The position numbers and the translations under genes are program-made. Positions 5,925 to 62,145 of a stretch of 64,000 nucleotides of DNA are shown here, piece after piece (the stretch's first letter is position 1; every line of letters begins with the position of its first letter). The notes under the pieces were generated by a model. That model saw only the letters and a list, made by a program, of their open reading frames with translations, did no database searches and was not told where the DNA came from. Source of the stretch: Agrypnia vestita (taxonomy: Eukaryota > Arthropoda > Insecta > Trichoptera > Phryganeidae); contig JADDOH010024956.1 in the NCBI GenBank assembly GCA_016648135.1, forward strand, positions 1-64,000. Reading direction: 5' to 3'.

Positions 5925-5975
5925 AGTTTTGAGAGAGGAGAGGTCCCTCTTATCATCAGGTTTTTCACTGAACAG
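5925..5975 (-). ncRNA. Decayed hammerhead motif, GAGAGG family
   Basis: On the minus strand a CTGATGA box is followed by an unpaired T, an AAGAGGG.../...CTCTC hairpin, and then CAAAAC where GAAAC is expected (G12 changed). It belongs to the family at 7.05, 12.84, 13.12 and 18.62 kb. The G12 change predicts loss of cleavage. Confidence 0.5.
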
Positions 5976-6234
5976 ATATGAAATTGTGATTTAATTGAAA
6001 GTGTTGTTTAAGCAAATAAAATGGAGGATTACACATTTTAAACATGGTTCAACTGACCGCTGATTCGCAATGATATAACTTGAATGCATAAAAAAATATT
6101 TTTAGAAACCATTTATATATGCTCTAATGATTAATACCGGAATACGAAATCATTAATAAACAACAGTTTATAATTTCAGTTTATAACAAAAAGTTTATAA
6201 TTTTACATACTCATACCTGGTTCTAATTTAAATA

Positions 6235-6805
6235 CGCGTTACAAGACGACGGAAGAGTTATCCGCTTTCCAACTGGAAATAAATGCTTCGATGCGGTTAG
6301 GGAATGCAATTCCGAGTCGGAATTGTCCTTTCGTGATCCTTCGAGATTAGAATTTCCAATCCCGCGGGATCCCTAGTGATCGTGATCCCGAATGCTTTTG
6401 TGTTTTTTTTTGTATATAAAGCCCAATAGCAGTTAAAGATAACGCCTTGCATTTTATATCAGCAATTTTAATATAATTTTCATTATTAATCATTGGATTA
6501 AAGTTTTTGTAGGCGTTTTTCCAAGGATCAATCAGTCAATGTAGTAGAGTAAGTACAAGTTTTTATTACTATGTTAGGTTGATAAAATACAGCATATATT
6601 ATTCAAAGCAATTTTCAATATTTGAATGTGACATGAACATAATTTTTAAGTACTTACTAAAAGCTCTATAGACATGCACAATTAAACATACAAAACATAA
6701 AAAAAATGTTGATGAATCCCGATAATCCCGTCCGATTTTTCGGTTCGGGATTGATCTCGTAAAATGCATCGAATTAGATACACCACATGCAATCCCGCGA
6801 GGTCG
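6235..6805. repeat. Eroded repeat rich in CGGGAT/ATCCCG words
   Basis: Between 6340-6400 and 6710-6800 the words 'atcccg' and 'cgggat' recur in both orientations ('aatcccgcgggatccc', 'gaatcccgataatcccg', 'aatcccgcgaggtcggg'). This looks like the remains of a DNA transposon with inverted subterminal repeats. I cannot assign a family. Confidence 0.4.
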
Positions 6806-6954
6806 GGATGGGTTAGATGGTTAGACGTGGTCACGAACAACATGAAGAAAATAAGTTGGTAGTTTTCGAATGAAAAATATAAATATCTTTTTGGACTTAC
6901 GCAAGAAAATGTTACTTTCTTAATGAAAAAAATGTGAGAATTCGAAAACAGTAT

Positions 6955-7095
6955 TATTGACTGACATGGCTGTTACTTTGTGGTGCAATGTGGTTATTTT
7001 AATTCATACTAAATTATACTGTGTAATACACGCACGTCGAGTAATCTTGACTGCAGTTTCGAGAGGAGCAGTCCCTCTCACATTTAGTTAATATT
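6955..7095 (-). mobile_element. PLE 3'-end remnant with partial hammerhead, GAGAGG family
   Basis: Minus-strand sequence 7080-7047 gives the helix II hairpin GAGAGG...CCTCTC, then GAAAC. Helix III is a perfect palindrome, ACTGCAGT, followed by C as position 17. The CTGATGA box is mutated (the 5' side reads AAATGTGAG). The downstream body (6955-7045 on this strand) is shared with 13150-13250 ('attactc.acgtg.gtgt', 'gcaccac.aagtaac.gcc'), which defines a dispersed element whose 3' region carries the ribozyme. Confidence 0.6.
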
Positions 7096-7229
7096 AATTG
7101 ATAACTAACCTAAATTCAGAATGTTGTCAACCTATTCAGGAAACAGATCTTTTAAATTCGTATCATGGATTGTCAACTGGCATAGATTCAACCATAGCGT
7201 TATTAAATAAGGTAAGTGAGTTACATAAA

Positions 7230-7415
7230 TACCATATATATACAACTTTCCAAATTTGATAGATCTGTGGTCGATCATGGGTGGAATCGGTGAAAGTTAC
7301 ATTGTATAAAGTGATCACTTAAGCCAGCCTACAACAGGTTGTAAACCGCGCAAACGCCCGTAAACCGTTTTCATTTAAATAGCTTCGTCTCTGTGAGACA
7401 TCTATAATTTATCTT
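7230..7415 (+). repeat. Dispersed repeat ('acttaagccagc' family), copy 1
   Basis: The words 'gtgatcacttaagccagc', 'cttcgtctctgtgagac' and 'ataatttatcttaa' occur in the same order at 63.37-63.49 kb and, inverted, at 11.67-11.85 and 26.44-26.64 kb. No coding potential; probably a non-autonomous transposable element. Confidence 0.65.
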
Positions 7416-7420
7416 AAGAA

Positions 7421-7768
7421 ATGATCCCTTTGGGGACAAAATTCAGTAATTTTGTTCTTAAAAATTTTAACGTACCTACTCAAAAAAAGATTGTAAATAT
7501 GAATATATTTAAAAACCTCGACAATAATAATAGAGTCGCTACTAAGTGCTATTATGGATCACTTGTTGCGATTAGATTGAGTGTTTATTTCAAGTGCATC
7601 GTTCGTCTTATCAATCTAATCCCCAAGTCGGAGATCTTATTTTCACTCCAAGAAATGTACACCCTTTCATTTTATTATAAAACCTTTCTTTCTCAAACAT
7701 TTCTACGGTCCCTACGTATACTGTCGAATCTATTATACGAAAATTATTTTTTCGTTTTACTATCGTAA
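7421..7768 (+). other. Open frame of 115 codons, probably fortuitous
   Basis: An uninterrupted frame starts at an ATG directly next to a dispersed repeat. The protein is rich in N, F, L, K and I, as expected from AT-rich DNA, and shows no motif I know. No splice context or codon signature supports a gene. I list it only because it is the longest non-transposon frame in this interval. Confidence 0.12.
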
Positions 7769-8115
7769 ATCATCCAATTCATTCTATATTTTTGGACAAT
7801 GTTGAAAAAAATTCTAATTTTCGTTTTAAACAACGCGTTTATTAAAGGAAAATTAAAGTTTTTTTTGACATTATCCGAAAGTATAGAGTAAATCGGATGG
7901 TTTAAGATACACGTGGGGACTGTTAATTTTTTTTTAGGAACATTGATTAATGAATAAAAAAGTGATCTTTACTTTTACTAAAAATTTTAGGTCCGCTATT
8001 AAAAACCTCTATAATTAATATTTTTAATATTTAAAGCATTCACTTTGTGCTGAGACATTTTAACAAAATGTACGTTATGTTACTATACATAATATAACCA
8101 CTGACGGAGATTTTT

Positions 8116-8156
8116 GGTCTACCGTTTCGAGACGTACACGTCTCTTCATCAGTATA
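8116..8156 (-). ncRNA. Hammerhead motif, GAGACG family
   Basis: The minus strand reads CTGATGA, an unpaired A, GAGACG-TGTA-CGTCTC (six-pair helix II), GAA, ACGGT, A, GACC. Helix III has lost one base relative to ACCGGT, and helix I on the 5' side (GTATA) no longer matches GACC. The catalytic core is complete but folding of helices I and III is weakened. Confidence 0.65.
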
Positions 8157-8192
8157 CCCACTATATAAGCATGTAAATATAATTTAGTGGTT

Positions 8193-8232
8193 GTCCTGAC
8201 GAAGAGACGGGTATATTTCGAAACCAATAGAC
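8193..8232 (+). ncRNA. Hammerhead motif, GAGACG family
   Basis: Plus strand: GTC, CTGACGA, unpaired A, GAGACG-GGTA then a decayed 3' arm TATTTC, GAA, ACCAAT, A, GAC. Helix I (GTC/GAC) is kept; helices II and III are damaged. Partner of the minus-strand copy at 8116-8156. Confidence 0.6.
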
Positions 8233-8984
8233 TAAAAATCTTCGTGAGGGTTATATGTTAACATAACTAACGTTTTGTTAGAGATCTTCTATCTCATTCT
8301 TCGGTATTTTAGTTTGGTCGACTTCAGGGTTGCTATGGTTTTCGGCTAAAGATGTCGAAAAATTCAGCGTCCGTACAGAAGAGTTTGATTACTAGTCCAG
8401 ACCCTTTAGAAGGTTTAATTTTGGAATATTTGGTTTGTCTTCGTTAGTTTTACCACAGGTTTCGCGCTTAACTTAAAGACCAAACTTTTGTTCAAAATTT
8501 AGTGTGGCGTCTCACAGCTCTCTCATGTCCCATAGATTTATTTTTTCGAAGGGCAAAACGAAAGAAAATGAAAAATATTTAAGTGACTTATTTTCATGTT
8601 CTTTTTCGATAGAAAAAAAAATTCTTTGATCACATTCACTCACTATTTGCTGATGCGTATAATTTTTTTTAGTTAAATTACTATTACGAATTATAATAAC
8701 TATTCTAAAGTTAAGTTACCCTCCATTTTAACAATGTACGAGTATCTCGAATTTTTTAACTAACCATTTATGTGTTTTTACTTTCTACAGTGACGATATA
8801 ACTTTTTGACAGAAATAGATCACCACATCATTAATAGAAATGGATTATCCGACTATATTGGAATGTGTTTGTGATTCTAAATCATTATACTGCTCATTTA
8901 TATGACCCAATTAAGGTATTTAATAAATATTCTCTCATATGTTCGTACGTCTAAATGTTTATTTATTGAAACAAAAATCTTACT

Positions 8985-9542: not shown

Positions 9543-9956
9543 ATATAACGTAAAAATGTCGAGATATATCATAGTACACTTCTTGATAAGTATCTAATAT
9601 TGTCATGTATTGAATATTACAAATTTACTACATTGTCCTTAATAATTAATTAATAATTATAATAATGATTGTAATATGTATTTATAATACTAAGTAATAA
9701 TTCTTAATATTTAATAATTATTACAAATTTTCCACTAATGCCCTTTAATAATTTAATGGCAGTAATTTTTTTCGAAAAAGAGTTTGAGAGGTAAAGAAAA
9801 GGTGTAAAAGATTCCTATAGAAGAGTAGGTCGATGAGAAACGAAAGTTTATTTAATTAAAGTTTTTTTTATTTTTTCAATTGATTCAGCAACATTGACAT
9901 TTAAAAAAAATTGATTGTATTATTTGTATAAAACTACTTATATTATTTGATTTATT

Positions 9957-9998
9957 ACACCTACATGTTTCGGAAATACCTTTCCATCGTCAGGGTGT
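9957..9998 (-). ncRNA. Hammerhead ribozyme, GGAAA family (all helices intact)
   Basis: Minus strand, in order: ACACC (helix I 5'), CTGACGA core, one unpaired T, GGAAA-GGTA-TTTCC (helix II), GAA, ACATGT (self-complementary helix III, no loop), A (position 17), GGTGT (helix I 3', fully complementary to ACACC). All conserved hammerhead core positions are present. Self-cleavage is expected after the A. Hammerheads of this minimal type are known from the terminal regions of Penelope-like elements. Confidence 0.85.
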
Positions 9999-10149
9999 TA
10001 TATATATGTCAAAATATCAAAATGAATAATGTCTTTTGTTTTTTGATTTTCTAAATTATTTGAAAATTTATTTTTAAATATTATAAGTTCTTGATTACTC
10101 GCAATTATTGGAAAATTTTTTAGAATTGGGCTAGTAGTTAAAAAACCGT

Positions 10150-10455
10150 TTGGAATTTTAATGTAAGAGTTAAAGAGCAATTGAGATGTCTGAATAATCA
10201 TGATTTTTTTAAATTTGCAAATCATTTATTAGAAAATGATCACGGTTTTGATAAAAATTTAGGTCTTTCTATTTTACACATAAATAATTTTGGTCTGAAA
10301 TTGAATAATTTAGAATCATTAGAAATTAGTAAAGCATGTAATAGTAAACAAAATATTATTAATAATCAATTAAATTTAACTGCTAGGCCAATTCTAAACT
10401 TTTTTCCAATAATTGCGAATAATCAAGAACTTCAGCAATAATATTTAAAAATAAA
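10150..10455 (+). pseudogene. C-terminal tail of a Penelope-like RT/endonuclease polyprotein
   Basis: The plus strand encodes VKEQLRCLNNHDFFKFANHL, then LLENDHGFDKNLGLSILHIN, LKLNNLESLEISKACNSKQ, NIINNQLNLTARPILNFF. This matches the known end of PLE proteins after the GIY-YIG core (a FAxHLLE.xH motif, an IL.IN stretch, a K.LES.EI motif and an N.Q..L..SP.L..F tail). The RT and the GIY-YIG active site are missing because the copy starts here, at the head-to-head junction. The opposite arm encodes the last part of the same tail (LTTSPILKNFPIIASNQEL) on the minus strand. Confidence 0.8.
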
Positions 10456-10511
10456 TTAGAAAAACAAAAAACAAAAGATATTATTCATTTTGATATTTTG
10501 ACATATATATA

Positions 10512-10553
10512 ACACCCTGACGATGGAAAGGTATTTTCGAAACATGTAGGTGT
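10512..10553 (+). ncRNA. Hammerhead ribozyme, GGAAA family (intact core)
   Basis: ACACC (10512-10516), CTGACGA (10517-10523), unpaired T, GGAAA-GGTA-TTTTC with one G-T pair (10525-10538), GAA, ACATGT (10542-10547), A at 10548, GGTGT (10549-10553). The predicted cut is between 10548 and 10549. It lies about 60 bases past the PLE coding tail and mirrors the copy at 9957-9998. Confidence 0.85.
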
Positions 10554-10984
10554 AATTAAACAAATAATATAAGTATATTTATACAAATAATACAATCAAT
10601 ATTTAAAAAAATAATAATTAGGTTTCTTCAACAAAAATGTTTTAAAACGGTTTTATTTATTTTATGCCTTTGTTAATATTTTTTAATTTAACTTTACGTC
10701 TCTCGGAAGATGCGAAATTGATTGGATATAATATTACGATGGCTTTGGGGTAAGGATATGGGTGGCAAGCGTTCGGGGTGGCCAAACTTTTGACGACGCA
10801 GTTATAAAATTCTTCAAACAAAATAAAAATCTTCAACAACAAACCGACAAATTAGTTTTTACTTGTTTTGGCGACACAAATACACAATATTTTAACGTTT
10901 TTTATCATTGATGATTATGAATAATAAGCTATTAAATCATTTGTCTTCTGATAGAATAAATAATAAAATATTGTAATTTATCGA

Positions 10985-11530
10985 CATTTACAGTAGGTAC
11001 ATTCTAAATTAGTAATCCTCGGTGCGTTGAAAACATATTTTTTATATTGCTGCCATTGCTTTTATACTCGTCAAGTATAGTTAACGTAAGCAGTTCGAGC
11101 TCAGGGTTTCTCGTAGTTAGTAGCAAAAATTTCGGGACACTCTTCTTCATTTAATTTTGAATAAAAAACATTATTTACGCTTTGAATGGAATGTGACAGT
11201 TACGGAGATATATGCAAGTTTGCATTTTTTTTTTTCAATATTTCTTACTTATTTTCTATTAATCGTTGGACTATCACTACAATAAATTATATGGAGTATT
11301 AAAAAATTAAAGTATTAAAAAAAACCTTACTTTTTTTTCAAATATCTTCAAGGTTTCAATGATTTTATTTATATTATATTGACGTGTTTTAAGTCCATCG
11401 TTATACAGAAAATAAGTTAGAAATGTTGAAAAAAATGCCCATTTTGATGTCGCTTATCTCCTTAACTGTAGACAAAATTTAATGAAGAAGATTCTCTTGA
11501 AGTTTTTGGTTCTAGCTAAGAGACATCATG
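10985..11530. repeat. Composite of MITE end and inverted dispersed repeat
   Basis: At 10995-11075 a MITE right end ('ttagtaatcctcggtg', 'attgctgcc.ttgcttttatactc') matches 28.15-28.23 and 41.76-41.83 kb. Between 11095 and 11530 two inverted arms share 'ttcttcatttaattttg' and its complement with the words 'gttacggagata' / 'cttatctccttaac'. A third copy of the arm is at 41.94-42.09 kb. No coding capacity. Confidence 0.6.
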
Positions 11531-12035: not shown

Positions 12036-12381
12036 TCAGTTCATTTTAATTGTCACTCGGAAGACAGTGGTTTGCCAATTTGAGAAATAAATCGTTACTG
12101 TAAACACGAATTGCCCAGGGCTCGGAATCGGGGACGCGCCGCAGCTCGGGCCCGGTTGCCCGCCCCTGGCATCTCCGGCGGGCGCACGTGGCGGCGCGCG
12201 TGAAGGGCGGCTCACGTGCGCGGCCTCCCCGCGCCCACGCTCGCCCGCGCTCGCCGGCCGCGTCCTGCCATTCCTCCGCCGGCCCCCACGGCTCGCGCAC
12301 GCCGCGCGGCTCTCTTGGGACATGTCGCTCCGCCGCTGAGGCAGGCTGGCGTGGCCACGGGACAAGCACGGCTACTTCGAC
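12036..12381 (+). promoter_or_regulatory. GC-rich promoter/5'UTR island
   Basis: The GC content rises sharply at about 12110 and stays high up to the exon at 12382. A six-codon upstream ORF (12322-12339) lies in the same frame as the main ATG and stops before it. No TATA box is convincing. A promoter/5'UTR role is inferred from the composition jump and the following coding exon; the long frames in several directions here are a side effect of GC richness. Confidence 0.45.
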
Positions 12382-12532
12382 ATGGCTGCGGAGACCCGCG
12401 AGGGCCCCGCGACCAGCGAGGGCCGCGCGGCTCTCGAGACGCGCAACCCCTGGCTGGTCTGGTCGCCGCCGCCGGTGCAGCCGCACTTCTCGGACTTCCA
12501 GCCGCCGCCGCCCAAGAGATTCCTCCTAGCAG
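12382..12532 (+). CDS. Putative first coding exon A of an unidentified host gene
   Basis: The ATG at 12382 (G at -3, G at +4) opens a frame that begins MAAETREGPATSEGRAA and continues with TRNPWLVWSPPPVQPHF and SDFQPPPPKRFLLA. The coding part stops at a good splice donor, GCAG|GTACCC, after base 12532, leaving phase 1. The peptide is proline-rich but has a protein-like spread of W, F, V and charged residues. An in-frame stop at 12337-12339 fixes the ATG. The same phase occurs at the second GC-rich exon candidate (37258-37375), so the two could be alternative first exons spliced to one downstream acceptor outside the window. I do not recognise the protein. Chance coding in a GC island remains possible. 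Confidence 0.5.
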
Positions 12533-12819
12533 GTACCCCACTTCCGTCCACATCGACGGAATATGCTTTGTCCCGACCGTGTTTTAGAAAAGGCTCCATT
12601 GTCTGATGCTTTGGCGAACTCGGCGGTTCATGAAGCTGCGTCCAAAGAAAACGAGTGTTTTTTTTTTTTTTTTAATATCTAATCATATTTAAACTTATCC
12701 AATACGTTTCTATATTGCGCAAATGCGTACATTCCACTTCGTACTAAAACATACAATGAAGTTTTAATTTACACAAACTAAACATTATAATATACACATG
12801 TTGAGTTATATTTTACAAT

Positions 12820-13255
12820 AGTATAAGATTCGAAAGGAGCAATCCCTCTCATCATTAACATTTACACATGGTGATGCTCTTCTAGAATCTATACTAGTGA
12901 TAAATATATGACTCAATGTGCATGTGGCGGTCTCTGTAGCCCAGTTGATGTACGACACTGGTTTCTAATACCGGAGGTTTCAGGTTCGATTCCTGGTGAG
13001 GTCACATTACACCAATGTGATTTAATCAAGCCTGGGTGTTATTGTGAAGTCTTTCGCTACAGTAATTGAGTCTCATGGACTGTTATAGCGTTAGAAATTG
13101 ACACCTAAAGATGAGAGGGGCTGCTCCTTTCGAAACTACAGTAGTGTCGAAATTACTCAACGTGTGTGTGCATTACAGAGTTAAGTTTGGTGAAAATTAA
13201 AATAATCACGTTGCACCACTAAGTAACTGCCCTATCAATCAGTAATACTGCAATG
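12820..13255. mobile_element. Hammerhead-bearing element pair, GAGAGG family, with a SINE between
   Basis: A minus-strand decayed hammerhead (12828-12860) and a plus-strand one (13103-13150) face outward, with a tRNA-derived SINE lying between them. The plus copy reads CTAAAGA (core G5 changed to A), unpaired T, GAGAGG...CCTTTC helix II, GAA, then ACTACAGTAGT, which can form a 4-bp helix III with a 3-base loop. Position 17 is G, which is not cleavable. The body 13150-13255 matches 6955-7045. Both ribozymes are predicted inactive. Confidence 0.6.
12925..13095 (+). mobile_element. tRNA-derived SINE, family 1, copy 1
   Basis: The head 'tggcggtctctgtagcccag' has an A-box-like 'gtagcccagttgatg', and 'ggttcgattcc' is a B box. 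The body 'gtgaggtcaca...aagcctgggtgtt...ttcgct.cagtaattg' is shared with copies at 49.73 and 63.16 kb. It is a Pol III retroposon with no protein. Confidence 0.8.
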
Positions 13256-17045: not shown

Positions 17046-17120
17046 AAGGTTGGTATAACGGTCGTCAGACATTTTGAACTGAAAAAGGTTACGGATATTT
17101 TATACGAACCGTATGTTTTT

Positions 17121-17162
17121 TCTCGACGTTTCGTTGAATTTATATTCAACGTCATCAGGAGG
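17121..17162 (-). ncRNA. Hammerhead ribozyme, GTTGAAT family
   Basis: Minus strand: CCTC (helix I 5'), CTGATGA, unpaired C, GTTGAAT-ATAA-ATTCAAC (seven perfect pairs), GAA, ACGT (palindromic helix III), C (position 17), GAG (helix I 3', pairing with CTC). The full catalytic core is present. The mirror position in the right arm (about 18425-18470) keeps the GTTGAAT/AATTCAA hairpin but has lost the core. Confidence 0.78.
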
Positions 17163-17634
17163 ACGACCTGATAATGCTTTCGGGAGCGTAAATTATATGC
17201 ACTTTGTTGTGGTGTGTTCACTTCTTCTACGATAGAGGCCGCCAGTGTGCAATATGTACCGGTTACGTTGGTGGAATTTTCTGCGACGTCTCTCAAAGGT
17301 TGAATCAAAGTCGTAAGAACAGGGAGCCAAATACTTGATTGTTTGTAACTGTCATCTCTATTGATATTGGGATGTTTGTATATTTCAATGGATTCCCTCA
17401 TTAATCTGGGTATAAGGCGCGGTTCTGTTGATAAGATTTTTTCTTGTCAAATCTGATGAAGTGACAGAGATTCCCTTTGGATGCATGTTCGCAGATTGCT
17501 GATATATTGGAGTTGTTATTTTTAATTGATCCAATATGTTCCTTCAAACGTGTAGCGGTATTGCGTTTGGTTTGTGCTATGTAGAATGCACCACAATCGC
17601 ATGGCACTCTGTATACACCTGGAGACTCGAATGC
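17163..17634 (-). pseudogene. Penelope-like GIY-YIG endonuclease and C-terminal tail (left arm)
   Basis: Minus strand: FESPGVYRVPCDCGAFYI, then AQTKRNTATRLKEHIGSIKN, ISAICEHASKGNLCHFIRFD, and, after a frameshift near 17401, RESIEIYKHPNINRDDSYKQ and SSIWLPVLTTLIQPLRDVAE. This is the GIY-YIG nuclease of PLEs: VYRVPCDCG..YIG(A here)QTKR with the Y and R residues of the fold, and the catalytic glutamate in the RESIEI block. The usual YIGQTKR reads YIAQTKR in this arm. The frameshift makes it non-functional. Confidence 0.8.
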
Positions 17635-17788
17635 GACTACTTATTCATGGAATACTTTGAAGAAAAAGCGCTAAGAACAGTCACTCACCCACCCTCAATT
17701 TGGCTAAGATACGTGGATGACACGTTTTTGTATTTACCCACACGGACGTGAAGCGCTCAATAACTTTTTAGCATATTTAAATGGCCAA
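17627..17788 (+). pseudogene. Penelope-like RT fragment with YVDDTF (left arm)
   Basis: Plus strand: DYLFMEYFEEKALRTVTHPP then SIWLRYVDDTFLYLP. YVDD is the catalytic aspartate motif of the PLE reverse transcriptase, and the following LP(H)GREALNNFLAYLN region can be read after a one-base frameshift at about 17745. It points toward the palindrome centre, opposite to the neighbouring endonuclease. Confidence 0.78.
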
Positions 17789-17945
17789 CATCCACCATGT
17801 TGGTCATTTAAATATGCTAAAAATTATTGAGCGCTTCACGTCCGTCTGGGTAAATACAAAACGTATCATCCACGTATCTTAGCCAAATTGGGGAGGGAGA
17901 TTGTTCTTAGTGCTTTTTCTTCAAAGTATTCCATGAATAAGTAGT
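17789..17945 (-). pseudogene. Penelope-like RT fragment (right arm)
   Basis: The mirror image of 17627-17788: YLFMEYFEEKALRTI on the minus strand, then the YVDDTF block in a shifted frame. It has the same truncation points as the left arm, which shows that the arms are copies of one another. Confidence 0.75.
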
Positions 17946-18425
17946 CGCATTCGAGTTTCCAGGTGTATACAGAGTGCCATGCGATTGTGGTGCATTCTAC
18001 ATAGGACAGACCAAACGCAATACCGTTACAAGTTTGAAGGAACGTATCGGAGCAATTAAAAATAACAACTCCAAAATATCGGCAATCTGCGAAAATGCAT
18101 CCAAAGGGAATCTCTGCCATTTCATCAGATTTGACAAGACAAAAATCTTATCAACAGAACCGCACCTTATACCCAGATTACTGAGGGAATCCATTGAAAT
18201 ATACAAACATCCATTTTCAATATAGATGACAGTTACAAACAATCAAGTATTTGCCTCCCTGTTCTTACGATTTTGATTCAACCTTTGAGGGACGTCGCAG
18301 AAAAGTTCACCGACGTAACCGGTATATATTGCACACTGGCGACCTCTATCGTAGAAGAAGTGAACAAAGTGCATATAATTTACGCTCCCGGAAGCATTAA
18401 TCAGTCCGCCCTGTGCCTCCGCCGG
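17946..18425 (+). pseudogene. Penelope-like GIY-YIG endonuclease and tail (right arm)
   Basis: Plus strand: GVYRVPCDCGAFYIGQTKR, NTVTSLKERIGAIKNNNSKI, SAICENASKGNLCHFIRFDK, and TKILSTEPHLIPRLLRESIE followed by IYKHP. This arm retains the canonical YIGQTKR and runs longer in frame (to about 18225) than the left arm before a frameshift. LIQPLRDVAEKFTDVTGIYC follows in another frame. Confidence 0.82.
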
Positions 18426-18599
18426 TACAGGTCGTTGAATACGAATTCAAGGTAACATCGAAAATCACTTCTCGGAATAACATACGGTTCGCGTAAAATA
18501 TCCGTAACCATTTACAGTTAAAAAAAGTAAATTTTATTTAAAATATGTTTTACTTTACTTTGTAATACACACACATGTAATACTTATATGAGTTATTAA

Positions 18600-18652
18600 A
18601 TTACTACTATAGTTCAGAGAGGAGCAATCTCTCTCATCATCAGGTATAATAG
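18600..18652 (-). ncRNA. Hammerhead motif, GAGAGG family (decayed)
   Basis: Minus strand: ACC, CTGATGA, unpaired T, GAGAG...CTCTC helix II around an 'agattgctc' loop, then TGAAC in place of GAAAC, and CTATAG as the remnant of helix III. The 5' core is intact, but the 3' junction has gained a T and lost A15.1, so cleavage is unlikely. Confidence 0.55.
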
Positions 18653-19599: not shown

Positions 19600-19820
19600 T
19601 CTGATTTGAGTTTTATATGATATTCTGAAGTTTCGCATCCTATTGCGGGGTCTGTCATCGGGCTGATGTGTTCTTATGAGTGTTGATGATGTTGAAAGCA
19701 GCTTTCGACACTTAACCACAAAATTACAACACTAATAAAAATATATCAGCCCTGATGATAGACCTTGCGATGGGATCCGAAATGTCTGGCAGTAAGGTCG
19801 CAAAATATCCCAGAATCATT
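19600..19820. repeat. Old palindrome with hammerhead-like ends
   Basis: The left part 19610-19690 is an inverse, diverged copy of 19735-19815: 'caacact.ataa', 'atcagccc(t)gatga.agacc', 'gcgatgggatccgaaa' and 'gaat.atatataaaa' in mirrored order. The plus-side copy reads CCTGATGA (19752-19759), T, a decayed helix II, then GAAA. It matches the head-to-head hammerhead layout, but helices I-III no longer pair well. Confidence 0.5.
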
Positions 19821-19993
19821 ATATAAAAATAGATTACTTGTCTGAGACCACTAATGAGTTTAAAACTACACTAGTTTCGACAACTACCGATGTTGTCATC
19901 ATTCGATGATATGATGACAACATCGGTAGTTGTCGAAACTAGTCGTGTAGTTTTAAACTCATTAGTGGTCTCAGACAAGTAATCTTTTTATAT
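19821..19993. repeat. Near-perfect palindrome containing split hammerheads
   Basis: Arms 19821-19902 and 19911-19993 are almost exact inverted copies with an 8-base centre. Each arm starts in the middle of a hammerhead core: the preserved part is ATGATGACAAC...GTTGTC (helix II), GAA, ACTAGT (palindromic helix III), position 17, then 3' flank. The missing 'CTG' of CTGATGA shows that both copies were truncated at the same place inside the ribozyme. The arms have few mismatches, so the insertion is young. Confidence 0.85.
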
Positions 19994-20029
19994 ACAATTA
20001 TAATGTCATTCCACAAAGTTAACGCCAAT

Positions 20030-20429: not shown

Positions 20430-21480
20430 CGCCCTTAGGATCCAAATTTGATGGCTATATATTAGAATGGTCCATTTCTTACATTATCATACAGTTTTGA
20501 AAACAGTCAGTTTTGTCTTGATAGCTTGGATTTTCTTATCACCGCATTTTATATCCCAGAACACGGCAGAACATCCCAGAAGAGGATTGGTTATATTTCA
20601 AAACATTTGTTTGCAATATTTAAAAAGCACAATATCAATATACCTACACCATAAAAGCCGTTTCGTAAATACGGTTTATTTTTAAATTTCAAATAAAAAT
20701 ATACGTCTTTAAAAAACAATTAGCCAAGAACACAACTTTTTCATACAATTTCAATTTGAATTCCCCGATACACTCACCATATCATTAGCTAGATGAAAAC
20801 GGTTTTTCTCGCGTTTTTTTTCTACTACTCATAATACTGATTTTTATTCTCAATCCTCCGTATAATAACACAGTTACGAATGCCAGGGGGTACTTTTATA
20901 TTTCCGACAGTAAATCATGCATTAACGTACAATTTTCCGTACAGTGCGCCTCTCGGGGGACCGGTCTACCCAACTATCTTTCGAGTCCAATCAACTAAAT
21001 TGCTCCGTAAAACACGTTACACGGTCTTCCGTCGGTATGAAATTCAGGTATTCGGTAAGATGTTTTAATTTCCATAAGCGACTCTCCGCTCCGAGTTTAT
21101 TATTCAATGATTAGCGCCCCGTACTCCCGAACGTGTGAATTTCCCCATGAATAAATGTACGAGCGTTTTACGACAAAGCTCTTCCACGTGCGGATGCTGC
21201 TTTGTATTAGAATCCGCTTTGTCAAAATTAATTCCCACAAGACAGAAAAGGTTTTTGAAGAGTTCCTCGTTCTAAATCGGTGTCGGGAAATGCATCGATG
21301 AATTATTCGAGTCGTATATTCTCCCACTTGTGAAAGTACTTCATAAAATATGTCCCTATTCAAATGCGATTCAAAATGTGTATTTGTTGTCATTTTAAAT
21401 TAAACTTACATAATAAAAATTATCTACCATATTACGCAATACTCTCTTTCCGGCGTAACCGTAAAAATATTATTTTACAG
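20430..21480. other. Non-coding DNA, no gene supported
   Basis: Moderately GC-rich patches (20880-21080 and 21100-21390) give short frames in both directions, but none has a recognisable motif. Unlike the flanks, this interval lacks obvious transposon signatures. Confidence 0.35.
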
Positions 21481-21519
21481 ATTGGTAGTTAACATTGTAA
21501 AAACCACTACCAGATTTTA

Positions 21520-21561
21520 GGTCTACCGGTTTCGAGACGTACCCGTCTCTTCGTCAGGACC
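21520..21561 (-). ncRNA. Hammerhead ribozyme, GAGACG family (intact)
   Basis: Minus strand: GGTC, CTGACGA, unpaired A, GAGACG-GGTA-CGTCTC, GAA, ACCGGT, A, GACC. Helix I GGTC/GACC and helix II are perfect; helix III is the self-complementary ACCGGT without a loop. Identical to its partner at 21759-21800. Confidence 0.85.
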
Positions 21562-21758
21562 AACACTACACCAGTACATTTACAACACTACACACATCGA
21601 CCATAGTATTGTTACACTTCCACCAATAATTGATCACATGCCATTAGGCTAATCAGTGCATGTTTGTCCCTGACAAGATTAACACGCATGTGATTGGTGG
21701 AAGTGTAACAATACTATGGTTGAGGTGTGTAGTGTTGTGAATGTAGTGGTGTAGTGTT

Positions 21759-21800
21759 GGTCCTGACGAAGAGACGGGTACGTCTCGAAACCGGTAGACC
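21759..21800 (+). ncRNA. Hammerhead ribozyme, GAGACG family (intact)
   Basis: GGTC (21759-21762), CTGACGA (21763-21769), unpaired A at 21770, GAGACG-GGTA-CGTCTC (21771-21786), GAA (21787-21789), ACCGGT (21790-21795), A at 21796, GACC (21797-21800). Cleavage is expected between 21796 and 21797. If the host-gene model holds, it sits on the sense strand of a large intron. Confidence 0.85.
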
Positions 21801-21924
21801 TAAAATCTGGTAGTGGTTTTTACAAAGTTAACTAACAATCTGTTATAATGTCTAACCACAAAGTTAATGCTTTAAATATTAATAATATATAATTTTTTTA
21901 CTTACGAGGTTACACCAATTAGAC

Positions 21925-24256: not shown

Positions 24257-24989
24257 TCTATACCTATAAAACTCTGTCTGTCTGTCTATTCTCTATACAA
24301 ATCTATACCGTCTGTCTGATTCGATTCAAATTTTGCATGCTTATGCTTTAGGACCCGGCGGGTAACATAGGCAACATTTCCCCCCTATTCTCTTACCCCT
24401 TCCCCTCCCAATGACATATTTTCGATGCAAATCTGTACCGTTTGACCGCTCGGACTCAAAATTTGGAAACTTATTCTTTAGGACTTGGCGGGTAACATAG
24501 GCAACATTTTCCACCTATGTCATATCCCTTCCCCTCCACCTGACATGTTTTCGATGCAAATCTGTACCATTTGACCGATTGGACTCAAAATTTGGAAAAT
24601 TATTCTTATGGACACTGTGGGTAATATATGCGACATTTCCCCCCTATTCTTTTAACCTTTCCCCTCCCCTGATATATTCAAATGTGTACCGTTTGACCGA
24701 TCGAATTTGGAAACTTATTTTTAAGATCTCAGCGGGTAACATTTGCGACATTTCCTCCGTATTATTTTACCCAATCCCTTCCCCCTGACATATTTTCAAT
24801 GCAAATCTGTACCGTTCGACCGATCGGACTAAAATTTGGAAACTTAGGACCTCCCCTTTTACCTTTTACACTCCCCCTGATATATTTTCGATGCACATTT
24901 GTATTGTTCGAATCAAACCTTTGTTTACCGCCACAAATTTATTTTCAACTTAATCCGTAACCCGTGCAACGCCGGGTACGAACAGCTAA
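24257..24989 (+). mobile_element. Non-autonomous Helitron with internal tandem array
   Basis: It starts with TC right after an A (A|TCTATACC) and ends with CTAA before a T, preceded by a GC-rich hairpin ACCCG...CGGGT at 24960-24977 in the context 'cccgtgcaacgccgggta'. These are Helitron 5' and 3' end rules, with insertion between A and T. The body is five to six degenerate units of about 125-129 bp starting near 24295, 24421, 24550, 24676, 24795 and 24887, each with 'caaatctgtaccgttt', 'gggtaaca' and C-rich 'ttccccc' words. No Rep/helicase frame is present. Confidence 0.78.
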
Positions 24990-25379: not shown

Positions 25380-25475
25380 GTAATAATTTTTATATATATT
25401 GTACCCTGACGAAGGGACCATCGGCCCTGAAACATGTTGATATTTTCAATAAATAAGTGGTGGAAACAAAGTATA
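25380..25475 (+). mobile_element. PLE 3' end, AGGG hammerhead family
   Basis: A hammerhead (25401-25443) is followed by 'ttttcaataaataagtggtg' and 'gaaacaaagt'. The same tail follows the hammerheads at 50.78 (-), 61.77 (-) and 62.10 kb (+). No coding part is recognisable upstream, so the copy is strongly 5'-truncated. Confidence 0.7.
25401..25443 (+). ncRNA. Hammerhead ribozyme, AGGG family
   Basis: GTACC, CTGACGA (25406-25412), AGGG...CCCT helix II (25413-25428), GAA, ACATGT (25432-25437), T at 25438, GATAT. Helix I is GTACC against GATAT, with one A/C mismatch; the sister copy at 50.8 kb has GTATC, which restores it. In this family the base after the core can pair (A with T), so there is no forced bulge. 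Confidence 0.75.
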
Positions 25476-30204: not shown

Positions 30205-30810
30205 AAACTTGGTTTTTATGGGTTACTTTTTTATATAATTTTTTTACAAATTTCCAAAGCGCATATTTTCTCTATCATCGCTAACAACGCTATAAAAATG
30301 GGTCCGTTATTCATAATAACAAGAATCTAACACAATACACATCTTATTGGTCATTGGCTTCTGTAAGCTCGTTGCTAGGCCCAGCAAGCGCCTTTATATA
30401 TAATTAAGATAAAAGTCATAAATATTTTATAATTAATATTCCTTTGATTTTAGACTTCTCTTATGCAACACTCGTGCTTTCAAAATTCACAGTTTATTTT
30501 AAAATACCTATATAAATTATTAGACGTGTATAAATATTAAATGCATTATTTATTTAAGTGACTCGAATAATAAATAATGTTTATAATATTTATATAAATC
30601 TATATGCATTTTAAAACTATCCGTACATCTCGCTAGTTTATACGATTTCAACATTTTATTATTTTTTCTCGATAATGGCAGGGTACGCGCGCATTGGTTG
30701 ATAGGTTTTTAGCGCAATCATAATATAGATTTAAAAAATAAAATTAATATATAATACCGATATATACACGGATATACACATCAATATTATTACTACAATA
30801 CAAATTTCCA
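30205..30810. other. AT-rich DNA with a dispersed repeat shared with 58.9 kb
   Basis: 30595-30735 ('catctcgctagtttatacga', then 'cattggttg.taggt') resembles 58930-59065. No coding region. Confidence 0.4.
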
Positions 30811-30815
30811 GACTA

Positions 30816-30961
30816 AGGCCCGGTTGTTTCAAATTCGATCAAAGTAAGCGTAGAGTTTAAACTGAAATTTTACGTTCTCCATCAATCAGACGATCCGTTT
30901 TCGTAAAAATCTATGCTTTTATCGACCGCTTACTTTGATCGAACTTGAAACAACCGGGCCT
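30816..30961. mobile_element. MITE, 146 bp, AGGCCCGG termini with TA duplication
   Basis: The termini 'aggcccggttgtttcaa' and 'ttgaaacaaccgggcct' are perfect inverted repeats, and the pairing continues inward ('gatcaaagtaagcg' / 'cgcttactttgatc'). TA flanks both sides (30814-30815, 30962-30963). Non-coding; mobilised in trans by an unknown transposase. Confidence 0.82.
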
Positions 30962-32387: not shown

Positions 32388-32648
32388 TATATATCGACGG
32401 CTCCTACGTATAATATCGTAACCCACAAATCGACGATTGTGAGTTTTTTGTGTATTTCATATGTATTTAATATATCTTTAATTCCAAGAAAAAAAAAAAT
32501 ATAATAAAAAACGTTATTTATTGCAAAATGTTTTTTTTTTCTTGGAATTAAAGATATAATTAAATACATATGAAATACACAAAAAACTCAAAATCATCGA
32601 TTTGTGGGTTTTGTGTGGGGGATATTATACGTAGAAGCCGTCGATATG
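32388..32648. repeat. Fold-back element with ~110 bp arms
   Basis: The left arm (32388-32495) and right arm (32540-32648) are inverted copies: 'tatcgacggctcctacgtat' / 'atacgtagaagccgtcgata', 'tttaattccaagaaaaa' / 'tttttcttggaattaaa'. The centre is AT-rich. No coding capacity; MITE-like. Confidence 0.75.
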
Positions 32649-37180: not shown

Positions 37181-37186
37181 CCTAGT

Positions 37187-37207
37187 ATGAGCCGCCCCCG
37201 GTGCTAG
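37187..37207 (+). other. Short upstream ORF
   Basis: ATG to TAG, six codons (MSRPRC), ends 50 bases before the main ATG. It may damp translation of exon B; the first exon candidate at 12.38 kb also has a tiny upstream ORF. Confidence 0.35.
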
Positions 37208-37257
37208 GCAGCAGCGAGGGCAGTGAGGTCCTGGCAGACGAGAAGGCAGAGGCAGCC

Positions 37258-37375
37258 ATGGAGTACCAGCACGGGGCTCCGCTGGGCCCCCCCGCGCCGC
37301 CGCCCCCCGCGCAGCCCAGCCTCCCCACGGCCGACCAGTATCATCACTTCTGGAGACAGCACGTCTACATCAACG
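37258..37375 (+). CDS. Putative first coding exon B of an unidentified host gene
   Basis: The ATG at 37258 lies in GCAGCCATGG, a strong start context, and the frame is closed upstream by TAG at 37183-37185. The peptide reads MEYQHGAPLGPPAPPPPAQP, then SLPTADQYHHFWRQHVYIN. It is proline-rich first, then changes to an aromatic- and histidine-rich stretch unlike translated GC noise. A donor follows at AACG|GTCAGA (base 37375), phase 1. It is a weaker donor than the one at 12532 but leaves the same phase. With exon A it fits a gene with alternative first exons whose shared body lies right of the window. I do not recognise the protein. Confidence 0.5.
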
Positions 37376-37379
37376 GTCA

Positions 37380-42180: not shown

Positions 42181-42190
42181 ATAATATATA

Positions 42191-43476
42191 TTAGGTCCTT
42201 ACATATGAAATTGGCGTTTAGTATGGGAGGAACATAAAGCCGATTTTTTTTTATTATAATATATTTATTTAATCAATGTATGTATCATTGCTATCTATGC
42301 ACTTTTGCCATCTCATAGGTAGTTCATCGATCCCTTTACTAAAAAAACCATACGGACGGGAATCAATAAAATCTTTGAAGGCGGTTTGGACTGCCCCATC
42401 GGAGTTGAATTTTTTCCTTTGCAAGAAGTTATCCAAATTTCGAAAAAAAGGATAATCTGTTGGGGCAAGGTCCGGAGAGTACGGTGAATGTCTTAGACAT
42501 TCCAATTGAAGCTCCTCTAATTTGGTAGCCGTCTGTTGTGCAGTGTGTGGTCTAGCGTTATCATGAAGCAGCAGTGGCCTAGAGCGATTAACCAGCCTCG
42601 GTTGTTTAGCAGCTAGCTTTTCCATCATGGTTTGCAGTTGCTGACAATAGACATCTGCCGTAATCGTCTGGCCAGATTTAAGAAAGCTGTAGTGAACGAC
42701 ACCAGCACTAGTCCACCAAACGCTCACAAGTAACTTTTTTGGAGTCAATTTTCGCTTGGGGCATGGTTTGGCTGGTTCGGCAGGGTTCAGCCATTGCGAT
42801 GAGCGCTTCCGATTATCGTACAGGATCCACTTTTCATCACAGGTAATGATTCGATTTAAAATCCCTTCATTATTGTGCCGGTTGAGTAATGCAACGCAGC
42901 AGTCAACGCGCGTTTGTTGATTTGCTTCACTCAATTCGTGAGGTACCCACCTTTCAAGCTTTTTCACCTTACCAATTTGCTTCAAGTGGATTAAAACAGT
43001 TTTATCACTAACACCGCAGCCTGCAGCTAACTCGGATGTGGTTTGCGATGGATCCGCTTCCACAATAGCCTTCAATTCTTCATTATCAACTTTGGTCTCC
43101 GGCCGTCCACGGGGCTTGTTCTGCAGGTCGAAATTTCCAGAACGAAAACGTTGGAACCAAAAACGCACTGTGTTTTCTTTTGCGGCACCGTCGCCATACA
43201 CATCATTAATCCTTCGAGCCGTTTCTGCAGCACAGGTGCCACGGTGGAACTCGTACTCGTAAATAACGCGATATTTCAAGTTATTCATTTTGTAAACTGA
43301 GTGACGCAAAGAAAAAAACAATTGAGGAAAAAACAAATGAATTATAATTTTCTAAACACAAATACATGAGTAAATAGCTGTATAAATTTGGATTTGGAAT
43401 TCCTAACCAAAGAGAAGATATTTGAGATCAAATTTGCCAGTACGGCAAAACGCCAATTTCATATGTAAGGACCTAA
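42191..43476 (-). mobile_element. Complete mariner transposon, TA target duplication
   Basis: 1286 bp, bounded by 29-bp identical terminal inverted repeats beginning TTAGGTCCTTACATATGAAA, with TA on each side (42189-42190 and 43477-43478). It contains one uninterrupted transposase gene. Size, TIR start (TTAGG) and protein type fit the mariner family of IS630-Tc1-mariner elements, close in style to the cecropia/Hsmar1 group. Identical TIRs and an open gene point to a recent arrival. Confidence 0.95.
42269..43288 (-). CDS. Mariner transposase (D,D34D), full length
   Basis: 339 codons from the ATG at 43288. I prefer this start over an ATG 16 codons upstream (43336) because mariner proteins begin just before the first helix-turn-helix. 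N-terminal HTH pair: YEYEFHRGTCAAETARRIND and the HTH with SELAAGCGVSDKTVLIHLKQ. Linker WVPHEL is canonical. The catalytic triad is complete: D in TCDEKWILYDN, D in LLHDNARPH, and D in YSPDLAPTDYPFF with exactly 34 residues between the last two. It cuts at the TIRs and inserts at TA. The family consensus SPDLAPSDY reads SPDLAPTDY here. No frameshift or stop is seen, so it may be active. Confidence 0.95.
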   Translation of the reverse strand: MNNLKYRVIYEYEFHRGTCAAETARRINDVYGDGAAKENTVRFWFQRFRSGNFDLQNKPRGRPETKVDNEELKAIVEADPSQTTSELAAGCGVSDKTVLIHLKQIGKVKKLERWVPHELSEANQQTRVDCCVALLNRHNNEGILNRIITCDEKWILYDNRKRSSQWLNPAEPAKPCPKRKLTPKKLLVSVWWTSAGVVHYSFLKSGQTITADVYCQQLQTMMEKLAAKQPRLVNRSRPLLLHDNARPHTAQQTATKLEELQLECLRHSPYSPDLAPTDYPFFRNLDNFLQRKKFNSDGAVQTAFKDFIDSRPYGFFSKGIDELPMRWQKCIDSNDTYID

Positions 43477-43499
43477 TAATTTCACAAATTTTTCAGCGT

Positions 43500-44619: not shown

Positions 44620-44760
44620 TTTTTTTTCAATCAACAAGAAACAAAAGACATTATTCATTTTGACAGTTATACAACACCCTGACAATGGAAAGGTTTTTTC
44701 CGAAACAAGTTAGTGTAATTAATCGAATAAAATAGTAGATACATACAAATAATAAAATCA
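44620..44760 (+). mobile_element. PLE 3'-end fragment, GGAAA family
   Basis: 'acaaaagacattattcattt' followed by a decayed hammerhead and 'taattaatcgaataaa' parallels 10470-10570. 5'-truncated; no coding sequence. Confidence 0.7.
44674..44716 (+). ncRNA. Hammerhead motif, GGAAA family (core mutated)
   Basis: ACACC, CTGACAA (G8 changed to A), unpaired T, GGAAA...TTTCC, GAA, ACAAGT (palindrome broken), T, AGTGT. Loss of G8, the general acid region of the ribozyme, predicts inactivity. Confidence 0.7.
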
Positions 44761-46454: not shown

Positions 46455-46590
46455 AGTAGCAATAATTATTCCAAATTTGCGAATTATATTTTGGTTATGA
46501 ATCGTTCTTTTGATATTAATAAGGGTTTACAAATTTTACATACAAATTATACAGAATTCCAGTTTGATAAATTAGAAATTTTGAAATAAG
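46455..46590 (+). pseudogene. Penelope-like C-terminal tail fragment
   Basis: The plus strand reads SNNYSKFANYILVMNRSFDI then NKGLQILHTNYTEFQFDKLE ILK. This corresponds to FANHLLENDHGFDKN..LSILHIN...LKLNNLESLEI at 10.2 kb. It is short, ends in a stop, and lies 150 bases upstream of a hammerhead of the AGGG family, so this is the tail of a second PLE lineage. Confidence 0.68.
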
Positions 46591-46741
46591 AATATATATA
46601 ATAGGAATCAGATCCTTTTTACAAATAGTTATCTTTTAAATATGTTTTCATGTTAGTACTTAATTATTATTTATTTCCTATAAATTATTTTTTAATATTT
46701 TGATTATCAATACTTTGATTTTTAATTTGTTAATATACATT

Positions 46742-46785
46742 GTATCCTGATGAAGGGACCATTGCCCCTGAAGTATGTTAACACT
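46742..46785 (+). ncRNA. Hammerhead motif, AGGG family (decayed)
   Basis: GTATC, CTGATGA (46747-46753), AGGG...CCCT, GAA, GTATGT (A15.1 changed to G), T. The 5' core and helix II are sound; helix III is damaged. Confidence 0.65.
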
Positions 46786-49727: not shown

Positions 49728-49893
49728 AGGCGGCTCTCGTAGCCCAGTGGATATGACACTGGCTTCTCACACTGAGAGTTCCGGGTTCGATTTCCGGTGA
49801 GGTCACAATAAATCTAAATGATTTACTCAAGCCTGGGTGTCTTGTGAAGTATTTCGCTTCAGTAATTGGCCTGTTAAAACGTAAAAAAAAATA
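49728..49893 (+). mobile_element. tRNA-derived SINE, family 1, copy 2
   Basis: A box 'gtagcccagtggatatgaca', B box 'gggttcgatttcc', then 'ggtgaggtcacaataa', 'caagcctgggtgtctt' and an A-rich end. The clearest copy of the family. Confidence 0.85.
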
Positions 49894-50754: not shown

Positions 50755-50822
50755 TGTTTTCACCACTTATTTATTGAAAATATCAACATGTTCCAATAGT
50801 CCCTTCGTCAGGATACAATGTA
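50755..50822 (-). ncRNA. Hammerhead motif, AGGG family, helix II truncated
   Basis: Minus strand: TGTATC, CTGACGA, AGGG, then a deletion that removes CCCT and GA, ACATGT, T, GATAT, 'tttcaataaataagtgg'. Helix I (GTATC/GATAT, with one G-T pair) is intact, which shows what the 25.4 kb copy has lost. Confidence 0.65.
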
Positions 50823-56780: not shown

Positions 56781-56853
56781 GTGTATGGATGCAAAATCGC
56801 CACCATCCATATGGGCTCCATATGGATAGTGGCGATTTTGCATCTATACGATA
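56781..56853. repeat. Hairpin with ~34-bp arms
   Basis: 56781-56814 and 56818-56853 are inverted copies ('atgcaaaatcgccac' / 'gtggcgattttgca', 'catccatatgg' / 'ccatatggat') with a three-base loop and a few mismatches. It could be a fold-back transposon or a hairpin RNA source. Confidence 0.75.
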
Positions 56854-60300: not shown

Positions 60301-60309
60301 TAATATCAA

Positions 60310-60480
60310 TAGAAAATCCAATGGTTTTCCGATAACGCCACTGACGTCACGACTACAGCCGTGCACCCCTATTGACGTCCCCTGTCTGGATCGCACACCA
60401 TAACGTCACGTACTTATCCATTCCGTCTGGTAGGCCGTCTCCTTTATCGCAACTATCGACGCGAAGGAAAGAGAGGGATG
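60310..60480. promoter_or_regulatory. CRE cluster
   Basis: A full cAMP-response element TGACGTCA lies at 60342-60349, with two further half/near sites ('attgacgtcccc' near 60371 and 'aacgtcacgta' near 60402). A CCAAT word is at about 60318. CREB/ATF-type regulation is the motif-based inference. Confidence 0.4.
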
Positions 60481-60484
60481 AAGG

Positions 60485-61700
60485 CGTCTATGAAGGGTTG
60501 GCATTTAATCCAGGATTTTGCTAAACTCCACAGGGTTGCAGGAAATGCGAGCAGGTAGAATAAAGCCGACGAGGCGATGAACGAAGGTTAATTGTGAATG
60601 TGGAAAAAGAAGAAAGTTATCCAGCGAGCAGACTGGTATGTTTTCAAACTTCAGAGAGGGTAATAGACGAATGTGTTGGAATCTGTGTTTACCTGAGTAC
60701 ATATCTCCGTAGTAGACAAAATGGAATCAACAGTTTCGGCTTACTTTAAGAGTATTTAGTAGACTTTAATCTGGATCGGCTCTCATAAAAGCAATTTATA
60801 TATCACTTCAATCTTTATGATGAATATAATACACAGTGGACTCTAGACGAATCAGCAAGAATAATGTGGATCAATATTTTGCGTAATCAAAATGTATAAA
60901 ACAAAGGTAAACTGTTGATATGTTATATTATTGTGGGTGCATATAATTGGATGAAGGATATTTATCACTATTTTTTTAATTTGATTGTAATCTTATAAAT
61001 AAAATAAAAATTACAATTATCCACATCTATTTTCGAAATACCACCAACCAGTGCCGGCAACTTTACAATATTTGCAGTTACACAACAAAACATTGAATGT
61101 TTCGACAACTGTGTCTTTAGTATATTGAATAGCGTTAGAACAAATATTTTGCCTAAAAGTATAGAAGAATTACCAGATGATGGTTTGCTAAGAATTATTC
61201 ATAATGAATATCACACGGATATAAAGATCTACGTGTACAGTCTATTTCTAATTATTTCTATTTTTTTAATTTTTTTTATTTATTTATTAACGCCCTTCAG
61301 GGCTTTTACAAACATAAGGTAAAGTGTACATTAAATTAATGAATACTTATAACATTCATAGTCGTTGAATACAAACAAGAAAATATAATAATATAAAGTG
61401 GAAAGCAAATACATAGCAGTAGCACAATATAATAGAAAATAAAATAATAATAATAATATAGAGTAAAAAGCAATAGCACAAGTTTAGTAAAGCATAATAT
61501 AATAAAAATTTTACATAACAGTTTGTTATCTCCCCCATCAAAAACTGAAATACAATCCACTTATTTACGTCCAATTTGACGAATACTAGTAATTCTTGAG
61601 GGTTTGTTAATAATATTATTTCCTATATAGGTGCGGACATTTATTTGTTTAACAAATAAACAAAAAATTATTAACTTCTTCTTCAAATGTAGCAAATTTA
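60485..61700. other. Non-coding DNA
   Basis: No gene recognised; two AT-rich frames at 61125-61322 and 61336-61574 look fortuitous. Confidence 0.4.
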
Positions 61701-61767
61701 TTTTGTGGTAAGATAATTATAATTAATATAAATTAACTTTGTTTAAACTACTTATTTATTGAAAAAA

Positions 61768-61808
61768 AATCAACATGTTTCAAAGCCAATGGCTTCTTCA
61801 TCAGGAAA
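61768..61808 (-). ncRNA. Hammerhead ribozyme, GAAGCC family
   Basis: Minus strand: TTTTC, CTGATGA, unpaired A, GAAGCC-ATT-GGCTTT (six pairs, one G-T), GAA, ACATGT, T, GATTT. Core intact; helix I has only two firm pairs. Confidence 0.75.
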
Positions 61809-62099
61809 ACAAAAATAATATTAAAAATCGAATTATAGATCAAAATATTAAAAAGAATATGGAAAATAATAATATAAAGTACCTAATTAATATGAAAATA
61901 AATTTAAAAGATAACTATTTGCAAAAAGGACCTGATTATTTATAATATTCAATTTACTATTTACAATAATCAGGTCCTTTTTGCAAATAGTTATCTTTTA
62001 AATTTATTTTCATATTAATTAGGTACTTTATATTATTATTTTCCATATATAACTTTTTAATATTTTGATCTATAATTCGATTTTTAAATATTATTTTTG

Positions 62100-62145
62100 T
62101 TTTCCTGATGAAGAAGCCATTGGCTTTGAAACATGTTGATTTTTT
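62100..62145 (+). ncRNA. Hammerhead ribozyme, GAAGCC family
   Basis: Mirror of the minus-strand copy: CTGATGA 62105-62111, A at 62112, helix II 62113-62127, GAA 62128-62130, ACATGT 62131-62136, T at 62137, then GATTT. Predicted cleavage after 62137. Confidence 0.75.

Follow-up and report, generated by a model that had tools for sequence, protein, structure and literature searches.

We report on a 64,000-nucleotide stretch of the trichopteran insect Agrypnia vestita (assembly GCA_016648135.1, contig JADDOH010024956.1, positions 1 to 64,000; hereafter the window), which very probably holds insertions of Penelope-like elements (PLEs) from about six families, decayed and truncated at the 5' end; they carry type I hammerhead ribozyme motifs, and about half of them are head-to-head double copies. 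The hammerhead motifs themselves are real: they stand above a shuffled background and are detected across families by a covariance model untrained on those families. They occur as opposite-strand pairs because such double copies make up about half of the insertions, and these pairs bear on the question of how PLEs insert.

A plain pattern search for CTGANGA..GAAA returned 19 matches in the window, 10 of which have hammerhead surroundings. These ten loci, at 8152 (-), 8196 (+), 9993 (-), 10517 (+), 17158 (-), 21557 (-), 21763 (+), 25406 (+), 61804 (-) and 62105 (+), keep the full core, in agreement with an original prediction, made from the sequence alone, that around ten motifs keep every core position. 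Eight of the ten additionally have a stem II that pairs and a stem III that is palindromic, with 8152 (-) and 8196 (+) combining an intact core with a stem III that is not palindromic. The matches at 5568 (+), 9060 (+), 19458 (+), 19752 (+), 35552 (+), 36504 (+), 45250 (-), 47403 (-) and 54389 (-) were rejected as chance since their stem II or stem III is unconvincing, and for the same reason we left out a wider palindrome (19631-19782) that contains the CTGATGA at 19752.

We then applied a descriptor demanding stem II, a stem III beginning with A15.1 and ending with U16.1, and H17. It matched nine positions in the window, of which we retained eight and rejected 35552 (+) for its 3-bp stem and 26-nt loop; as 100 dinucleotide-preserving shuffles averaged 0.41 matches and never gave more than 2, the predicted excess over shuffled sequence holds. 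Demanding at least three contiguous helix I pairs as well left five positions (shuffle mean 0.05, maximum 1), with three family 3 copies failing because only 1-2 pairs adjoin their core. We also searched the window with a covariance model, R1, which was trained on six copies from families 1 and 2 only and run with filters off. R1 reported 33 matches at expectation values (E) up to 10, and those at ranks 7-12, directly under the six training sequences, are all loci described here: 8111 (-), from family 2 and in this sense related to the training set, at E 9.7e-6, and the family 3 motifs at 25402 (+), 61763 (-), 62099 (+) and 50780 (-) together with the family 5 motif at 13098 (+) at E 0.042-0.061. 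The best match outside our loci has E 0.56, which places the motifs at 18.6 kb (-) (E 1.2) and 17.12 kb (-) (the family 4 hammerhead, E 2.3) inside the R1 background, and those at 5.93, 7.05, 12.84, 19.9 and 46.74 kb were not recovered by R1 in the window at E up to 10.

Read from their sequence and predicted pairing, the motifs belong to the minimal type I hammerheads of the dimer type, usually carrying a single additional base 3' of A9. For stem III, families 1 and 3 have ACAUGU, family 2 has ACCGGU, family 4 has ACGU and one copy of family 5 has ACUAUAGU, and as these sequences are palindromic (4-8 nt), two RNAs can build the stem between them. The single base between A9 and stem II is U in family 1, A in family 2, C in family 4 and U in family 5, while family 3 has an A after A9 that is able to pair with a U. 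In helix I, families 1 and 2 form 4-5 contiguous pairs, family 4 forms 3, and family 3 has only 1-2 adjoining the core. Compensating changes distinguish family 1 from family 2, with both sides changed in six of nine pairs, and 93% of cells are paired in the alignment of both families compared with 13-54% when it is slid, in a test with five distinct rows and a structure derived from the very copies tested. The proposed check with a hammerhead covariance model came out negative for the Rfam models, which reported no hammerhead in the window or in two short stretches, neither at gathering level nor at E up to 10, though the motifs are present by descriptor and R1. The extra base and the absent stem III loop may account for this miss, and Rfam hammerhead models can accordingly miss the minimal form. 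MicroRNA-family matches in the Rfam scan were all under their families' gathering scores, and those among the matches listed are inverted repeats.

Folding two copies together predicted a double hammerhead, with a 6-bp stem III alongside helix I and stem II, in 4 of the 12 copies folded, namely those of families 1 and 2 that are intact, and not in the other eight. When full-length transcripts of the palindromes at 10, 21.5 and 62 kb were folded, on either strand, the mirror arm paired with 45-49 of the 47-49 hammerhead bases, compared with only 11-13 of 49-50 in the palindrome at 8.1 kb, whose arms have diverged. Since this predicted pairing takes up the hammerhead in three of the four palindromes folded, hammerheads between well-matched arms are unlikely to cleave during read-through transcription, and genomic copies inside intact palindromes probably do not cleave.

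Among neighboring motifs less than 1500 nt apart, we found seven same-family, opposite-strand pairs (at 8.1, 10, 12.8/13.1, 17-18, 19.9, 21.6 and 62 kb), and all seven are divergent, with their 3' ends outward. The sole converging opposite-strand pair, 18.43 (+) and 18.64 (-), joins motifs from two different families. This pair list was compiled by hand from pattern, similarity and by-eye results, with family labels taken from DNA similarity. Fourteen of about 21 motifs are thus arms of seven head-to-head insertions, and adding the seven single copies (5.93, 7.05, 18.6, 25.4, 44.7, 46.7 and 50.8 kb), the motifs derive from about 14 insertions. The arms of the palindromes are 74-95% alike, indicating insertions of differing age. 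The window holds further palindromes in which we recognized no hammerhead (7761-7909, 11229-11435, 30809-30968, 31157-31299, 32391-32647 and 56783-56849), and these may be foldback elements of another sort or earlier insertions like those described here.

By DNA similarity we counted six families, where at least five had been predicted. Family 1 comprises a head-to-head insertion at 9910-10600, identified by palindrome, descriptor, R1 and a flanking duplication, with hammerheads at 9953-9999 (-) and 10511-10557 (+), and a single copy with a decayed core (CTGACAA) at 44673-44720 (+), identified by DNA similarity and R1. Both family 2 insertions are head-to-head, one with a long left and a short right arm (8013-8280; hammerheads 8111-8160 (-) and 8190-8238 (+)) and one with a short left and a long right arm (21477-21894; hammerheads 21515-21563 (-) and 21757-21805 (+)). 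Family 3 has three single copies, at 25402-25443 (+) with an intact core (descriptor, R1), at 46606-46779 (+) with a decayed hammerhead (DNA similarity) and at 50780-50815 (-) with a damaged core and stem II (R1), as well as a head-to-head insertion with intact cores at 61717-62191 (hammerheads 61763-61810 (-) and 62099-62146 (+)). Family 4 consists of the palindrome at 17072-18524, with a hammerhead at 17116-17164 (-) and a decayed partner near 18432 (+).

Family 5 includes a head-to-head insertion with a short left and a long right arm (12762-13250; decayed hammerheads near 12857 (-) and at 13098-13153 (+)), a single copy with a decayed hammerhead at 6949-7087 (-), found by DNA similarity, a single copy with a near-intact hammerhead at 18599-18649 (-), which has the 8-nt palindrome ACTATAGT and a GAAA short of one base, and a possible remnant at 5912-5965 (-), seen by eye and with no alignable relative downstream. 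Family 6 is a palindrome at 19815-20001, recognized by DNA similarity, that stops at a putative hammerhead core and is without C3 and helix I, the missing C3 being due to truncation within the core. Most loci named in the original prediction proved to be real motifs or decayed relatives (those at 7.05, 12.84 and 46.74 kb being recognized as such by DNA similarity), the less secure ones being 5.93 kb, seen by eye only, and the truncated 19.9-kb locus. The outward orientation of all seven pairs, the target-site duplication, the unequal arm ends and the decayed partner of the 17.12-kb motif at about 18.43 kb (+) go beyond what had been predicted.

The carriers of these hammerheads are most likely PLEs, a name given on the basis of motifs read by eye and of their arrangement. 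Each strand of the family 4 palindrome carries a reverse transcriptase (RT)-like piece with RYVDDTF and a GIY-YIG-like endonuclease piece, a combination that we take to be a PLE feature. The endonuclease-like pieces, at 17941-18222 (+) in the right arm and 17404-17640 (-) in the left arm, were picked out by eye from their GVY..YIG spacing, and a predicted structure was too poor to bear on the assignment (mean predicted local distance difference test score, 41.8). The RT-like pieces lie in frames at 17530-17748 (+), in the opposite orientation to that arm's endonuclease-like piece, and at 17820-17906 (-), its mirror; RYVDDTF-bearing pieces occur in family 4 only and have no database match. In both arms the RT-like and endonuclease-like pieces point in opposite directions, a layout like that of twin-primed insertions, and an inversion common to both arms implies a rearrangement that is older than the palindrome or was copied into it.

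Endonuclease-like coding tails are also present upstream of the family 1 hammerhead (10142-10438 (+), a 99-aa open frame) and upstream of the 46.7-kb copy (46455-46586 (+), a 44-aa open frame), and the two are mutually related (17 of 38 positions identical, E 2e-8 in one comparison). In family 1 the coding frame stops at 10438 and the hammerhead begins at 10511, i.e., 3' of the open reading frame, and families 3 and 4 are arranged likewise. The predicted position of hammerheads 3' of Penelope-like coding tails at 10.2 and 46.5 kb was in this way borne out, with the clearest coding, at 17.4-18.2 kb, having gone unmentioned.

We sought target-site duplications (TSDs) at eight loci, a set that left out the 12.8/13.1-kb pair and the other single copies. 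The 10-kb family 1 insertion is flanked by an exact 11-bp repeat, ATTTAAAAAAA (left copy 9899-9909, right copy 10601-10611; a score of at least 10 was reached by 0.2% of random placements), such that this palindrome most likely inserted as a single unit. At 21.5 kb, a flanking repeat matching at 9 of 10 positions is suggestive, being equalled by 2.75% of random placements.

The insertions end 50-130 nt past the hammerhead, and in three of the seven pairs one arm is without a 43-51 nt 3' extension present in its partner, an extension that resembles the optional tail of PLEs. Of the family 2 arms, the left at 21.5 kb (palindrome 21477-21843) and the right at 8.1 kb (ending at 8280, equivalent to 21845) are short, such that the short ends of two separate insertions differ by no more than 2 nt in element position, and the long arms continue alike to 21894 and 8013. 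These family 2 short ends are drawn mainly from palindrome similarity and from the 8L-8R and 8R-21R alignments (L and R, left and right arms). The left arm of the family 5 insertion at 12.8 kb extends only as far as 12762 when compared with both the 7.05- and 13.11-kb copies, which share about 48 nt beyond that point (to 6949 and 13250). Finding one short and one long arm in all three pairs has a chance of 1 in 8 if the choices are even and independent. A possible homology of the family 2 and family 5 tails through the common word ACCACAAAGT was rejected for lack of significance, as a word of that length arose in 53 of 1000 random draws.

For the origin of the second arm we prefer, at somewhat less than an even chance, a route by priming on both cut strands. 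The element's endonuclease would cut an AT-rich site, reverse transcription would be primed at the cut and start downstream of the hammerhead, and the other cut strand would prime too, the two products being joined at their inner ends via a short inverted repeat. In the rival self-priming route, which we consider a quite realistic possibility, the complementary DNA made at the target would fold back at its 3' end on a short inverted repeat and be copied outward to give the second arm. We place the two routes at near-even odds on mixed evidence: the outer ends look like separate reverse-transcription starts, and the centers hint at fold-back copying. Self-priming does not predict the coincidence of shorter outer ends between separate insertions that is seen in family 2, and it is also disfavored by the 258 nt that lie between the innermost exact 9-mers of the family 1 pair at 10 kb. 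A similar distance at 12.8/13.1 kb (256 nt) reflects a repeat that inserted there later, a tRNA-like sequence between the arms (about 12926-13068; 29.2 bits in the Rfam scan). This repeat, probably a short interspersed element, has three copies in the window (12929-13054, 49730-49855 and 63165-63290), and the copy at 12930-13004 meets the Rfam tRNA cut-off.

Several observations weigh against our reading, some of them in favor of self-priming. Inner ends mostly match, with the innermost exact 9-mers only 8-53 nt apart in five of the seven pairs, as small central loops from self-priming would be. At 17.8 kb, the center forms a tight hairpin (7-bp stem, 5-nt loop) and the RT/endonuclease inversion junction is common to both arms, a shared inner rearrangement that favors copying of one arm from the other. 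Self-priming was, moreover, already proposed in 2013 for head-to-head PLEs in rotifers, where the authors note that an antisense template is required (PMC3846280). Both arms end together in four of the seven pairs, and a convincing duplication was found at one of the eight loci, with 61.7 and 19.9 kb at the 8% level and the rest at chance. The anchored alignments 21L-21R and 8L-21L overran the family 2 short end and 8R-21L stopped early, which AT-rich flanks allow. Regarding PLE identity, the coding pieces have no relative in Pfam, PDB or the protein database, and neither a scan of viral contigs with the endonuclease-like piece nor a scan with the family 2 pattern returned anything.

Explanations that dispense with PLEs fare worse. 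Inverted-repeat DNA transposons of the kind known as miniature inverted-repeat transposable elements, with hammerhead-like sequence in their terminal repeats by chance, would fit a window that also has palindromes without hammerheads; they are very unlikely in view of the PLE-like coding, the partnerless single copies, and the unequal outer and inner arm ends. Animal retrozymes, i.e., small non-autonomous repeats that produce circular RNA with working hammerheads, likewise have type I hammerheads with a weak stem III and coexist with PLEs in animals (PMC7229834), yet none of the 20 tandem-repeat rows in the window has a period of 150-450 nt and the hammerheads sit 3' of coding tails, leaving this explanation with a slim chance at best. 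That the arrangement is due to chance or to an assembly artefact appears extremely improbable: palindromes do arise easily in AT-rich sequence, and many microRNA-model matches are mere inverted repeats, but the shuffle controls, arms that are 74-95% alike rather than identical, and the duplication around one palindrome all argue against it.

Elsewhere in the window, we found a mariner transposase frame of the Mos1 type, 360 aa long and close to intact (42269-43351 (-)), which lies between perfect 31-bp inverted repeats (42189-42219 and 43448-43478) and is young in appearance; a transposase of this type points to an animal-like genome. A tandem array at 24287-24846 has about 4.4 copies of a 129-nt unit, and G+C-rich patches at 12046-12587 and 36989-37596 have long open frames on both strands, the rest of the window being AT-rich. 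A 156-aa open frame at 662-1132 (-), without a Pfam match, resembles by eye a piece of a non-LTR retrotransposon.

Minimal type I hammerheads of PLEs were reportedly described by Cervera and de la Pena (2014) and by Lunse et al. (2017). Hammerheads are established in PLEs, and ours share with the published minimal forms the type I order, a very short stem III, the expected action as dimers and the pseudo-long terminal repeat (pLTR) location (PMC7761336); most families here have one unpaired base after A9, which may be a difference from those forms. An extra base at the same position is seen in the plus-strand hammerhead of chrysanthemum chlorotic mottle viroid, where it is an unpaired A between A9 and 10.1, and where U in its place makes trans-cleavage 3-4-fold faster, C and G being detrimental (PMC3705267); here it is U in families 1 and 5, A in family 2 and C in family 4. 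The density and family diversity that the original prediction had considered remarkable do not stand out, given that the two arms of seven insertions account for 14 of about 21 motifs, leaving about 14 insertions in all, and that a coral genome is reported to carry over 6000 type I motifs, from 16 families (PMC7229834). Where a single insertion contributes two motifs, counting motifs exaggerates the number of independent ribozymes.

The closest counterparts to the pairs are the PLEs of the rotifer Adineta vaga, which have inverted pLTRs, TSDs of 8-10 bp, a 31-bp tail on one pLTR and palindromes at the inverted junction (PMC3846280). Our insertions resemble them in head-to-head arrangement, TSD, optional tail on one arm and junction palindromes, and differ in being short, decayed and of about six families, with an extension of 43-51 nt rather than 31 bp; the available text of that account contains no occurrence of hammerheads. 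In 2024, the purified protein of the PLE PAc/Poseidon of Anolis carolinensis was reported to cut and extend both target strands at AT-rich sites, with two reverse-transcription start sites that match an optional 30-40 bp tail and a hammerhead near the start; this hammerhead cleaves only with protein, and its cleavage is dispensable for insertion in vitro (PMC11167929). In a more speculative and unlikely variant of two-strand priming, the palindromic stem III would mainly hold two element RNAs together, and a dimeric protein-RNA complex would copy both onto the two cut strands of one target, making head-to-head insertions the direct product; if true, this would explain why the dimer-prone form is kept though cleavage is dispensable.

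PLE hammerheads, their dimeric action, their many families, head-to-head PLEs and tails are thus already in print. The available part of the PAc account does not tie head-to-head insertions to two-strand extension (PMC11167929), and, judging by titles and abstract openings, we found no use of arm ends in the literature to separate the two proposed origins. Both arms of one insertion event can be compared here, and a genome-wide version of this comparison could decide between the self-priming published for the rotifer elements and the two-strand extension published for PAc.

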